Part shown: piece after piece, positions 1,811-6,159 of the stretch | Layout: the number at the start of each line of letters is the position of its first letter | How positions within the stretch are numbered: the first letter of the stretch is position 1 | Origin: Candidatus Latescibacterota bacterium | Lineage (GTDB): Bacteria; JAAXHH01; JABIQT01 | NCBI GenBank assembly: GCA_018667995.1 | Contig: JABIQT010000987.1 | Coordinates: 1 to 6,356 of the forward strand | Direction: 5' to 3' | Length of the DNA: 6,356 nt | Made by a program: the position numbers and the translations under genes | Notes under the pieces: model-generated | Told to the model about the DNA's origin: nothing | The model's input: the letters and a program-made list of their open reading frames with translations, nothing else | Databases searched by the model: none

Positions 1811-1830
1811 ACGCAGGCGAAAATGCGCAT

Positions 1831-1836
1831 AGGAGG
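1831..1836 (+). promoter_or_regulatory. Shine-Dalgarno AGGAGG that fixes the DUF624 gene start
   Basis: A perfect AGGAGG is followed by four G and then ATG at 1841. The longer frame's ATG at 1823 lies upstream of this site and has no comparable ribosome site of its own. The start at 1841 is therefore preferred. The spacing is slightly short, but the G-rich run allows a shifted register. Confidence 0.7.
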
Positions 1837-1840
1837 GGGG

Positions 1841-2524
1841 ATGCTGGAACGGGGTAAAAGCACGATCAAACGCTGGTTCTGGCACACCTATGATTTTCTG
1901 GGTACGCTGATCGCTCTCAATGTAGTTTTCCTCGTCTTATCGCTACCAGTGATCACGCTTCCCCTTTCGCTTGCTGGACTGTTTTATGTGACGGATCGGA
2001 TAGTGAGAGTTGAGGATGTCAGAGTTCGTGACTTTTTTAGAGGAATGCGCGTCCATGGAATCAGATTCATCTCCCTTGGCGTCTTGTTTTTTGTCTGTAT
2101 AGCTGTGCTAGCTGTGAACGTGTTCTTCTATATACAGATGATAGAGCAGTGGTCGTGGGCAGCTGCATTGCTGGCCGGGGTGATATTTTGGCTGATCGTA
2201 TTTGTGTTGATTGTCGTTGCGGTGTCGTTTCCTCTGCTCGTAAGTACGGATGAGCCGTTAAAGTCCGTTGTTTGGCGCGGTGTACTGCTGGTTCTGAACG
2301 ATCCATATGCATCAGTCAGTCTGCTGATCGGAATTATGATCATCCTGTTTCTGGGGATCGTAACCGGGGCGGGATTCATTTTTGGTGCCCTGTCGGTGTC
2401 CGCCATGCTGTGCAGTACTGTTTTCAGGGAAATGTCGACGAAATATGATAATGTATCCGATTCTGAGCCAGAGGAAATACGAGGGTGGCGTGACCTGTTT
2501 CGTCCCTGGGACCTTGGAAAATGA
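1841..2524 (+). CDS. DUF624 (YesL-type) multi-pass membrane protein
   Basis: This is a 227-residue inner-membrane protein. It starts with a basic stretch (MLERGKSTIKRWFWHTYDFLG) followed by long hydrophobic segments at about 21-49, 76-99, 107-134 and 157-190. Amphipathic charged loops lie between them (RVEDVRVRDFFRGMRVHG at 56-73). The tail ends in an acidic stretch and then RGWRDLFRPWDLGK (214-227). The layout resembles the DUF624/YesL family, in which a short N-terminal W-rich segment leads into four to five helices and the C-terminus often carries a (W/L)RDL.RPW-like motif. The family has no settled biochemical role. Some members sit beside carbohydrate transport operons, and no transporter genes are present here. 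It is the first gene after the promoter, and its stop overlaps the tmk start (ATGA), so the two are probably translationally coupled. The family call rests on remembered pattern, not a search. The membrane nature is clear. Confidence 0.7.
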   Translation: MLERGKSTIKRWFWHTYDFLGTLIALNVVFLVLSLPVITLPLSLAGLFYVTDRIVRVEDVRVRDFFRGMRVHGIRFISLGVLFFVCIAVLAVNVFFYIQMIEQWSWAAALLAGVIFWLIVFVLIVVAVSFPLLVSTDEPLKSVVWRGVLLVLNDPYASVSLLIGIMIILFLGIVTGAGFIFGALSVSAMLCSTVFREMSTKYDNVSDSEPEEIRGWRDLFRPWDLGK

Positions 2525-3150
2525 GTAGCGCCCTTGAGACGGAGCGTCCTCTATTCATCGTGTTTGAAGGGATTGATGGTGCAGGAACGACCACTCAAGC
2601 CCAGGCCGCCTGCGCTTGGCTGGAGGAATCTACTCAAAACCCTGTGTTTCTGACTCGGGAGCCTTCACAAGGCCCCATCGGGGCGCTGTTGCATCAGGCG
2701 TTACGTAGGCGGATCGAATTTGATCCGCGCGTCATGTCTCTACTCTTCGCCGCAGACCGCCTGGATCATCTATTCGAGGAAATTCAGCAACATCTGAAAG
2801 ACGGGGTAGCGGTGATTTGTGATCGATACTATCTGTCGTCGCTGGCGTATCAAATGGTGGACGCCCCACAAGACCTTGAATGGCTGGATCAATTGAACGC
2901 TAAGGCTATCTCGCCCGATCTCACCATTCTCCTTGATGTGCCTGCGGACGTGGCTATGGATCGCATATGCAGAGGGCGTCTGAACTTGGATTTGTACGAG
3001 AACCTTGATAGACAGAAATTGGTACGGGACAATTATCTGCATCTCGCTGAACATCGCCGACGGCCAGATGAGAGGATTGAAGTAGTCGATGGTCATCGCG
3101 CTCAGGAACAGGTGCTGTCCGATATCTGTGAACTGATCGCTTCAGTTTAG
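2521..3150 (+). CDS. tmk: Thymidylate (dTMP) kinase, variant P-loop
   Basis: This 209-residue protein would phosphorylate dTMP to dTDP with ATP in the cytoplasm, a step essential for dTTP supply. Its length is typical of the family. Visible motifs are FIVFEGIDGAGTTTQ (12-26) as P-loop, TREP (45-48) for dTMP phosphate binding, FAADR (76-80), the catalytic-region DRYYLSSLAYQ (101-111), LLDVP (137-141) and an Arg-containing LID segment, R149/R151 to about 170. The P-loop has Thr23 where the Walker A Lys is usual (GxxGxGK[ST]). The following TREP is continued as SQGPIG instead of GGTPLG. I recall bacterial dTMP kinases with GTTTQ together with REPS/T.GP.G, so this is probably a natural subfamily and not a dead enzyme. 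The start overlaps the upstream stop by four bases and has only a weak ribosome site (GGA), consistent with coupling. A related nucleotide kinase is possible but less likely given the DRY motif and TREP. Confidence 0.9.
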   Translation: MSSALETERPLFIVFEGIDGAGTTTQAQAACAWLEESTQNPVFLTREPSQGPIGALLHQALRRRIEFDPRVMSLLFAADRLDHLFEEIQQHLKDGVAVICDRYYLSSLAYQMVDAPQDLEWLDQLNAKAISPDLTILLDVPADVAMDRICRGRLNLDLYENLDRQKLVRDNYLHLAEHRRRPDERIEVVDGHRAQEQVLSDICELIASV

Positions 3151-3215: not shown

Positions 3216-3437
3216 ATGATAACATACCTATTCAGGGCAGTCGCGGGATTCTTGTTTGGATATGTAATGCGCGAGGGGATGCGCATTCTTTTCGCCCAGG
3301 GTGTACGAAGGGCCTCAAAGACACCGAGTCCTGAGGAGGCTCGTACCCCCGCTGCACGAGAGCCTCGTATACATATTGATCCAGCAGATATAGTCGATGG
3401 TGATTTCAAGCCGATTGCGAATCGTGAGAAGCGGTAA
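3216..3437 (+). CDS. Small hypothetical protein with N-terminal hydrophobic segment
   Basis: This is a 73-residue protein I do not recognise by name. Residues 1-29 are mostly hydrophobic and glycine-containing (MITYLFRAVAGFLFGYVMRE then MRILFAQG). This gives a short membrane anchor or amphipathic helix, and positive charges (RR at 31-32) lie just after it. The middle (33-50) is Pro/Ala/Glu-rich and probably disordered. The C-terminus has a compact acidic motif, IDPADIVDGDFKPI (54-67). Similar short tails (D-I-x-D-A/G-x-F-x-x-I) recur in small membrane-anchored proteins of several environmental bacteria as far as I remember, which suggests a conserved docking segment. AGGGG at 3202-3206 lies nine bases before the ATG and supports translation. 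The gene is 65 bases after tmk, and its stop shares one base with the next start (TAATG), so it is probably coupled to the phosphatase-acetyltransferase gene. Function is unknown. Confidence 0.7.
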   Translation: MITYLFRAVAGFLFGYVMREGMRILFAQGVRRASKTPSPEEARTPAAREPRIHIDPADIVDGDFKPIANREKR

Positions 3438-5194
3438 TGCTCAGAAATTTCAGCTGGGTTATTGATGGTCGACTAGCCGGTATGGCCATTCCAAGCGGCG
3501 CCTATAGAGGCTCCCTGCGAGGTGGGACTTCCGAGCTGGAACGGGATGCGGAGGAGCTCACAAATCATGGAGTAAACGCGGTAGTTTCACTGACTCACCA
3601 AGCCCTTGCTCCGGATGTGCTTAAGACATTTGGAATCACTACATTGCATCTTCCTGTCGAGGATATGACGCGTCCTACGCGGGAGCAGATTGATGAGTTT
3701 ATCTCCTTCGTCGACCAGACTGATGGCGGCGTGGTCGTGCACTGTGCCGCGGGCATCGGACGGACTGGCACCATGCTTGGATGTTATCTGGTCTGGAACG
3801 GCTTGCCGGCGGACCAGGCGATTAGTCGCTTGCGCCGACTGCGTCCCGGATCCATTGAAACACCGGATCAGGAGTGGGCTGTTCTTGACTTTGCCGACCG
3901 CGTCGTTCAGGTCGGTATAGGCTTAGGGAAAGGTGCCCGCCCAGCCCATCCTGGCAAAATGGATGACGGCGAAGTTCGTGAAGCGACTGATCAAGAGTTG
4001 TCAGCCGTCGTGGATGTGATGACCGCCGCATTTTCGGAACGGGCAGGATATGACCGACGAGCCGACTTCGAACGGAGAATTGCTAGCGACACCTGCGGAA
4101 CATTCGTGAAAAATCGGGTATTGATGGCTGATGATACCATCAAGTCAGCACTCCGAATCTACGACAGGACGGTCCGCATTGGCCGGGCATCCATTCGATG
4201 TGCAGGTGTTGGTGATGTTGCCACCATGCCGGAGGCGCAGAACCTTGGTTACGGGTCACATCTGGTACGGTCCACGGTACGATCCCTGGCCGAGCAGGGC
4301 TATGAAATGGCTTGGCTGACCGGTTCGCCTGATTATTATGGTCGATTCGGTTGGCACACCTGTCCCTGTCATTTTTTCGAGGTTACACAGATTTATCAAG
4401 TAGAAAGGTCCAACGTCCCCTGCACAGTTCGTACATTCGATGAAGATGGGGATTACAATCAGATTCTGGAGATCTACGATCAGTTCAATTCGGTGAAAAG
4501 TTTTACGGTCGAAAGATCGCCAGAATACTGGTCGTGGCTAGACCGATACCGTACGCTTTGGCAGCACGAAAAGATCAGAGTATTGGCTGCCAGCACTGAT
4601 GGTCGTCTTGTTGGCTATTTAATCCTTGAACGTCATTCCTCTGAGTGGCGCATATTGGAAGTTGCAGGACCTGACATCGACCAAGGGGAAATAGCGGCAC
4701 TTATAGCTACTGCAGGTCGGATGGCTGTAGAGGCCGGAGTTGGCAGGATTCGCGGTGTAACTCCATACGATGATCGTTCTCTTCGGCAATTGCAGAGGGC
4801 CGGAATCGAGGGAAGAGTGTTGAGTGATGTTCCACTGTTTGGCAATGTGATGGTTCAGATTCTGAATCTGAGGAGCTTTCTCAAACGAATGATTCCGGAG
4901 TTAGAATCGCGGCTGCGTCAGACCTGGCAAGGCAGTCTTGCATTTAGTACCGAGAAGGGCGAACGCGTCGTTCTTATCATTCAAGGTAATGCGTTAAGTG
5001 TTCGTGAAGTGCGGGCCGCCGATATCGAAATCTCCTTCCCGGCTTCGGATCTCACTACTATGTTGCTGGGGTATACCTCCTTTAGAAATACGCACAGACT
5101 TGGACCGGATACAATTCCCAGGCAAGTCATGAACCTGCTGGATTCGCTTTTCCCTGAGACCAATCCCGTGTATTGGGCGACGGACTACATCTGA
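3437..5194 (+). CDS. DUSP23-like phosphatase fused to Eis-type GNAT acetyltransferase
   Basis: This is a 585-residue cytoplasmic-looking protein made of two units. Residues 1-157 resemble the DUSP23/VH1-like dual-specificity phosphatases. NFSWV and GRLAGMAIP lie near the N-terminus (4-19), VSLT is at 50-53, and the likely general-acid Asp76 is in VEDMTRP. The catalytic P-loop HCAAGIGRTGT (102-112) has nucleophile Cys103 and Arg109, and RLRPGSIETPDQEWAV (134-149) follows. A linker (about 158-182) leads to a 400-residue unit like Eis acetyltransferases. The first GNAT domain (about 183-310) has an acetyl-CoA motif with Q268-x-x-G271-x-G273 and YYGRFGW (300-306), where Tyr301 matches the family's proposed general acid. 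A second GNAT-like domain (about 330-475) and an SCP2-like domain (about 478-585, ending LFPETNPVYWATDYI) follow. Both units are full length and keep their key residues. The fusion is one continuous frame, with the start fixed by the NFSWV alignment and the TAATG overlap. Substrates are unknown. The domain calls are by remembered motif. Confidence 0.87.
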   Translation: MLRNFSWVIDGRLAGMAIPSGAYRGSLRGGTSELERDAEELTNHGVNAVVSLTHQALAPDVLKTFGITTLHLPVEDMTRPTREQIDEFISFVDQTDGGVVVHCAAGIGRTGTMLGCYLVWNGLPADQAISRLRRLRPGSIETPDQEWAVLDFADRVVQVGIGLGKGARPAHPGKMDDGEVREATDQELSAVVDVMTAAFSERAGYDRRADFERRIASDTCGTFVKNRVLMADDTIKSALRIYDRTVRIGRASIRCAGVGDVATMPEAQNLGYGSHLVRSTVRSLAEQGYEMAWLTGSPDYYGRFGWHTCPCHFFEVTQIYQVERSNVPCTVRTFDEDGDYNQILEIYDQFNSVKSFTVERSPEYWSWLDRYRTLWQHEKIRVLAASTDGRLVGYLILERHSSEWRILEVAGPDIDQGEIAALIATAGRMAVEAGVGRIRGVTPYDDRSLRQLQRAGIEGRVLSDVPLFGNVMVQILNLRSFLKRMIPELESRLRQTWQGSLAFSTEKGERVVLIIQGNALSVREVRAADIEISFPASDLTTMLLGYTSFRNTHRLGPDTIPRQVMNLLDSLFPETNPVYWATDYI

Positions 5195-5270
5195 TGATTC
5201 TTTGGAGCCATATATATCGAAATTGTGCATCCAGATCGTGGAATCACTGACTAACTTTTACATGAAACAT

Positions 5271-5274
5271 GGAG
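5271..5274 (+). promoter_or_regulatory. Shine-Dalgarno GGAG that fixes the TIM-barrel gene start
   Basis: GGAG lies six bases before the ATG at 5281. The longer frame's ATG at 5269 overlaps this site and has no ribosome site of its own. The protein from 5281 begins MFSYAVITDEVSQD, which matches the usual family N-terminus directly. Confidence 0.6.
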
Positions 5275-5280
5275 CAGAGA

Positions 5281-6159
5281 ATGTTCTCCTATGCGGTCAT
5301 TACCGATGAAGTGTCTCAGGATCTCGAGGATGTAATAAGGTTCTGCGGAGATTTCGCCCTCGACGGGATAGAAATCAGATCTGTCTGGAATAAGCCTCCC
5401 CATCAGCTTACTGAGGGAGACATAGCACGCCTTCGTGATGGTGTGGGGGAAGCAGGATTAAAGGTTTTTGGTATCGCGGCTCCGTTTTTCAAATGTGATA
5501 TCCGGAGCGATGCAGACTTCGACGAGCACCTTGATATTTTACGTCGTTGCATCAATCTGGCGCAAGCTTTGGATACGAATCTGATTCGCGTGTTTGCATT
5601 CTGGCGGCAAGATCCGTTTGAGGATTACCTGGACCAGATAGTGGAGAGATATCAAGAGCCTATTCGCATTGCGGAAGCCGAAGGTATCATTCTTGGAGTG
5701 GAAAATGAACACTCCACTATGGTGGGCACCGGGCGCGACACGCGCACGCTGGTAAATCGTTTGGACTCACCAGCAGTGAAAGTGATCTGGGATCCATGTA
5801 ATGAGTTTCACGATAGCCGTGGAGATGTCCCGTTTCCTGCTGGCTACAACCACGTCAAGGATGTCCTGGCTCATGTTCACATCAAAGATGCGGTGCTGCA
5901 GCCTGATGAAGGTGCCATATGCGTGCCTATGGGGGATGGTGAGATAGATTTCAAGGGACAGTTTCAAGCTCTGGCCGCCGATGGTTATAGCGGATGTATC
6001 TCTCTGGAAACCCACTGGCGTCCTAAACCAGAGCAAATTGAGCGACAGCTACTCGATCGGCCGGGCGGTCAGGCGTTTTCTGAATTGGGTGAAGAGGCGT
6101 CAAGAATCTGCTTTGAGAACACATTTAAACTACTTAACGAGATAGGAATCAGTCGGTAA
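5281..6159 (+). CDS. Sugar phosphate isomerase/epimerase-like TIM-barrel protein
   Basis: This 292-residue protein has the pattern of the AP_endonuc_2/xylose-isomerase-like TIM-barrel family, whose members isomerise or epimerise sugars, inositols or related hydroxy-ketones using a divalent metal. Visible landmarks, numbered from the chosen start, are the N-terminal strand YAVITDEVSQDLE, GIEIRS with Glu31, the strand LIRVFAFWR (101-109), GVENEHS with Glu141 and IWDPCNE with Asp171. HVHIKDA (198-204) with His198/His200, MGDGEIDFKG (217-226) and SLETHWRP with Glu243 follow. These supply the Glu/Asp/His/Glu set that normally binds the metal. Length is typical, with no signal peptide or membrane segment. 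The exact substrate cannot be read from sequence, because this family is broad and often only annotated generically. It lies 86 bases after the fusion gene and 34 before aspS. No sugar catabolic or transport gene is adjacent in the window. Confidence 0.87.
   Translation: MFSYAVITDEVSQDLEDVIRFCGDFALDGIEIRSVWNKPPHQLTEGDIARLRDGVGEAGLKVFGIAAPFFKCDIRSDADFDEHLDILRRCINLAQALDTNLIRVFAFWRQDPFEDYLDQIVERYQEPIRIAEAEGIILGVENEHSTMVGTGRDTRTLVNRLDSPAVKVIWDPCNEFHDSRGDVPFPAGYNHVKDVLAHVHIKDAVLQPDEGAICVPMGDGEIDFKGQFQALAADGYSGCISLETHWRPKPEQIERQLLDRPGGQAFSELGEEASRICFENTFKLLNEIGISR

Follow-up and report, generated by a model that had tools for sequence, protein, structure and literature searches.

The window, i.e. 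the whole stretch of DNA that was analysed (6,356 nt; contig JABIQT010000987.1 of assembly GCA_018667995.1, from an uncultured bacterium deposited near Latescibacterota), contains a gene that joins a DUSP23-like phosphatase to an Eis-type acetyltransferase in one chain of 585 aa. Judging from the sequence, we take this to be a real two-enzyme chain, joined once and with both active sites kept (probability roughly 0.7); a shared function arising from the tethering would be the inferred part of this reading. The figure covers the structural statement; a neutral tether, which we rate at rather less than an even chance, competes only with the functional gain, and the two estimates overlap.

From left to right, the window carries trpE on the minus strand, followed on the plus strand by genes for a DUF624/MusI-like protein, dTMP kinase, a 73-aa protein, the fusion, a TIM barrel protein and the start of aspS. 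The uninterrupted frame at 3437-5194 given in the preliminary description is correct, starting with ATG and containing no internal stop. The features are:

1823..2524, plus strand: DUF624/MusI-like membrane protein, conserved operon neighbour (domain searches; synteny)
2521..3150, plus strand: dTMP kinase (tmk), conserved operon neighbour (TIGR00041, 1.4e-46; synteny)
3216..3437, plus strand: 73-aa protein, predicted to have one membrane segment (sequence; directly upstream of the phosphatase in 10 of 10 genomes of the order examined)
3437..5194, plus strand: fusion gene, 585 aa, DUSP23-like phosphatase and Eis-type acetyltransferase (single ORF; 47% full-length homologue in another family)
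3437..3910, plus strand: N-terminal phosphatase domain, residues 1-158, with predicted general acids D76 and E141, nucleophile C103, and R109 (Pfam PTP-SAK/Tc-R-P/DSPc; human DUSP23 alignment; 55.7% identity to the second fusion)
3911..3970, plus strand: linker, residues 159-178, unconserved (the two fusions are 10% identical here; model confidence is low at 160-176)
3971..5191, plus strand: C-terminal Eis-type module, residues 179-585 (Pfam; full-length profile match to Eis-family structures; conserved chain end), with subdomains GNAT at 179-307, second GNAT at about 330-430 and SCP2-like at about 478-585, Y301 and a free C-terminus
5269..6159, plus strand: xylose isomerase-like TIM barrel protein, a conserved neighbour on the downstream side (AP_endonuc_2, 4e-34; synteny)

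The stop codon of the 73-aa gene overlaps the start of the fusion gene (TAATG at 3435-3439), and therefore the two genes are probably translationally coupled. The 73-aa protein has no match in Pfam or NCBIfam; a C-terminal motif like IDxxNIVDxxFED is conserved in it. No structured RNA was matched in the window with Rfam, and a PADLOC search for anti-phage defence gave no match.

The two enzyme halves

In Pfam searches the N-terminal half matched PTP-SAK (1.2e-23, residues 3-149; the origin of this name was not found in the literature), Tc-R-P (5.9e-25) and DSPc (2.3e-12). Compared with PDB sequences, essentially the whole half is covered by the DUSP23-like protein 25xa (4.8e-36) and by human DUSP23 (2.4e-28). 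The CX5R loop HCAAGIGRTG with C103 and R109 is present and is common to a second fusion (see below), and D76 and E141, both invariant in the fusion pair, align with Asp65 and Glu134, the dual general acids of DUSP23, of which Glu134 is reported as the primary one (PMC9038691). By its sequence, this half is a DUSP23-type dual-specificity phosphatase with predicted activity. Along its whole length it aligns with DUSP23 (VHZ) and with bacterial and archaeal DUSP23-like enzymes (PDB 2img, 4erc and 25xa; Tk-PTP), sharing the NFSW motif, the HCxxGxGRTGT P-loop, the Asp and the Glu of SIET. These enzymes are single-domain proteins, whereas the window protein adds a 400-residue acetyltransferase behind the phosphatase.

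The C-terminal half contains an Acetyltransf_9 domain (Pfam, 6.2e-23, residues 179-307), a second GNAT domain seen as a weak Acetyltransf_6 match at 330-400, and an SCP2_2 match at 518-578 that, for the single sequence, falls slightly under the cut-off (20.8 against 23.2 bits). A profile made from 18 relatives aligned with positions 3-399 of 404 of the Eis-family structure 3n7z (1.3e-41) and with 2i00 (3.6e-28), and matched M. tuberculosis Eis in part. As the profile spans 3n7z from end to end, the half is full length, with the tandem GNAT domains and SCP2-like C-terminal domain of the Eis-type layout. Y301 and the terminal LFP...W..D-x are aligned in nearly all relatives, and the chain ends at the same length. 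In M. tuberculosis Eis, the tyrosine equivalent to Y301 (Tyr126) serves as general acid, and the C-terminal carboxylate, on Phe402, as remote base (PMC8556138); a conserved chain end is what would be expected if the terminal carboxylate were catalytic as in Eis (PMC8556138, PMC3795558). The terminal residue itself is Ile/Val in the two fusions, whereas M. tuberculosis Eis ends in Phe. With the NCBIfam Eis models, the best Eis-group matches (36 vs 259 bits, and lower) do not reach the equivalog cut-off. Because these scores are far under the cut-off, the half is, at the level of sequence, an Eis-like branch and not Eis proper, with predicted activity. In common with the Eis/type V tandem-GNAT enzymes (PDB 3n7z, 2i00, 2hv2, 3r1k) it has the GNAT-GNAT-SCP2 order, the acetyl-CoA loop, the catalytic Tyr and the chain end; unlike them, it belongs to a divergent branch (about 25-28% identity to the nearest stand-alone relatives) and has a phosphatase attached at its N-terminus.

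Domain searches match both halves, and Pfam, the PDB sequence search and the profile search agree with the preliminary description that each is full length. The active-site residues it quoted (D76, C103, R109, Q268/G271/G273 and the Tyr of YYGRFGW, i.e. Y301) were right; the list of catalytic residues was incomplete in that Glu141, the counterpart of DUSP23 Glu134, had been missed. An AlphaFold model of the whole chain, computed with a seven-sequence alignment, reached a pLDDT of 57 and a pTM of 0.33, with low confidence at residues 160-176, which is too weak to position the two active sites relative to one another; the best Foldseek matches of this model were nevertheless DUSP23 (target TM-score 0.83) and acetyltransferases of the Eis family.

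Distribution and origin of the fusion

A search for homologues over both halves, which the preliminary description had proposed as a check, yielded a full-length fusion in a second family of the order. This protein of 600 aa (contig JACQVL010000155.1 of genome G001) matches residues 1-585 at 47% identity (55.7% for the phosphatase halves, 46.1% for the Eis halves and 10% for the linkers). G001 is an independently assembled groundwater MAG deposited as 'Candidatus Latescibacterota'; it belongs to the same order but to a different family. Both fusions have D76, H102-C103, R109, Q268, G271 and Y301 in common, the exception being G273, which is Ala in G001. Both genomes also show the same gene order, DUF624-tmk-small protein-DSP(-GNAT)-TIM-aspS. 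In a third family (f3), by comparison, a stand-alone phosphatase of 163-172 aa is present in 14 of 14 genomes, the match stopping near residue 160. Where f3 loci were read through, the TIM barrel gene lies directly after the phosphatase with no acetyltransferase between; the exception is contig L029, which ends just beyond the phosphatase. In close relatives there is a fusion or else a lone phosphatase, not the two separate genes that the preliminary description had named as speaking against it.

No third fusion was found in the 517 genomes scanned, of which 16 belong to the phylum and the others to other phyla; part of the scanning used a stricter threshold. As each species is represented by a single genome in the collections and the scans were limited, rarer fusions may exist. 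Plasmid records contained no match covering both halves, and a single-protein scan of genome contigs gave no match. The fused genomes are two, one per family, and conservation is judged from this one pair.

In the tree, the two fused Eis halves are sisters (support 100/99), so one joining event suffices, and the phosphatases from all three families cluster together with moderate support (86/79). The stand-alone proteins closest to the Eis half come from genomes of another phylum, with no phosphatase nearby. Such relatives include those of the G054 phylum, in which Eis-like acetyltransferases were observed in 83 of the 84 genomes, with up to 12 matches per genome and no fusion. A derivation of the Eis half from a paralogue in the window genome itself (at C748) was rejected, this paralogue grouping with f3_G013 (100/100); the two fused halves stand apart from it and from the Eis-like proteins of the third family. 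The simplest account is a single joining, either in the ancestor shared by both fused families or earlier and followed by loss in the third, the species tree being unrooted. Since the neighbouring genes are the same across the order's three families, our best reading of the sequences is that the phosphatase would be the older resident of the operon slot and that a single event added an Eis-type gene or domain at its C-terminus.

Possible function of the joined chain and alternative readings

If both enzymes are active, the phosphatase half would hydrolyse phosphomonoesters via a thiophosphate intermediate at Cys103, with Arg109 binding the phosphate and Asp76 and Glu141 serving as acids; the Eis-type half would use acetyl-CoA to acetylate an amine, Tyr301 acting as the general acid and the carboxylate at the free C-terminus as the remote base. 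The phosphatase-first order leaves the Eis C-terminus free, which would fit Eis chemistry, and may be required by it. The linker differs in length as well as in sequence between the two fusions, and in G001 it holds an in-frame array of 7-bp repeats (CCCCGAA type). An 18-base pattern of this array matches 74 times in the G001 genome and is absent from both the window genome and G002. As this G001-specific array sits inside it, the linker looks like a flexible tether or insertion-tolerant spacer. Spacers of G001 are likewise rich in heptamer tandem repeats (L028 9554-9586, 10829-10858, 10914-10943 and others). The predicted bifunctional protein would thus have two independent active sites. Given a flexible tether, the likeliest gain would lie in co-localising the two enzymes at a shared stoichiometry, and not in a rigid active site common to both. 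Should the Eis half oligomerise as Eis does, several phosphatase domains would be displayed around the core. The sequences directly show which domains are present, that they stand in a single chain, their conservation and synteny, and that the catalytic residues are kept; enzymatic activity, oligomerisation and a common substrate or pathway are what we infer here.

The properties of the linker also suit a neutral origin, in which an acetyltransferase gene was inserted between the genes for the phosphatase and the TIM barrel protein and a stop codon was lost, leaving two unrelated enzymes merely tethered. We regard this as a serious contender, if not quite an even bet: a linker that varies in length, is 10% identical and has taken up a heptamer array tolerates insertions, both halves are still similar to stand-alone relatives, and those closest to the Eis half (25-28%) reside in another phylum without a nearby phosphatase. 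Linker divergence and isolated distribution are compatible with it as well. Against it, the chain has persisted in two families at 47% protein identity; both active sites are still intact, and no case was seen of the halves separating again. As to a functional gain, dephosphorylation and N-acetylation might act successively on one substrate, which could be an amino-sugar phosphate or phosphorylated protein; no such coupling has been described so far, and we consider this particular proposal rather doubtful.

Another arrangement would be regulation in cis, the Eis half acetylating a lysine on the phosphatase half. Its precedent is M. tuberculosis Eis, which acetylates and activates host DUSP16 at Lys55 (PMC3795558, PMC5799202). 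As in the window, an Eis-type enzyme there meets a dual-specificity phosphatase (human DUSP16/MKP-7), but the two are separate proteins of two organisms, pathogen and host, acting as enzyme and substrate, and the DUSP families differ, whereas the window pair is covalently joined and has no conserved target lysine. The lone lysine of the window phosphatase half, K63, is Gln in the second fusion. As the two fusions have no lysine at a common aligned position, cis acetylation is very unlikely as a conserved function. Least probable of all is that the chain is an artefact of assembly or of a frameshift, or that internal initiation yields two proteins: the same single frame in the independently assembled second genome, at 47% identity, rules out an assembly artefact, and the in-frame ATG of the window linker (M175 region, KMDDGE), a conceivable internal start, stands against a G001 linker without methionine.

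Comparison with other fusions and biological meaning

In line with the preliminary description, which knew of no such domain order, we found no description of a phosphatase-acetyltransferase fusion of this kind in the open-access literature. Each half comes from known families, and their combination is, by sequence, a genuine but narrow new domain architecture. The DUSP23-like/PTP-SAK type of phosphatase appears prone to fusion, because it was also seen joined to MazG and a PRA-PH nucleotide pyrophosphohydrolase (L089 4541-5782, 413 aa) and, as a DSP-type phosphatase in an f3 genome, to an ADP-ribosylglycohydrolase (L090 3862-5337); in neither case is the partner an acetyltransferase. Other f3 genomes have ORFs of about 500 aa that are similar to the L090 fusion and give weak DSP matches; three plasmid matches are annotated as ADP-ribosylglycohydrolase. 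In a protein of 437 aa (L048 5122-6435), a DUSP23-like domain lies C-terminally, behind about 290 residues without a Pfam match.

Gene fusions often signal functional links, and bacterial DUSP23-like phosphatases and Eis-like acetyltransferases are widespread, their native roles being poorly known. A conserved phosphatase-acetyltransferase chain may thus offer a lead to the substrates of both kinds of enzyme. The fusion also fits the idea that Eis chemistry, by way of the free C-terminus, would limit where a partner domain can be attached.
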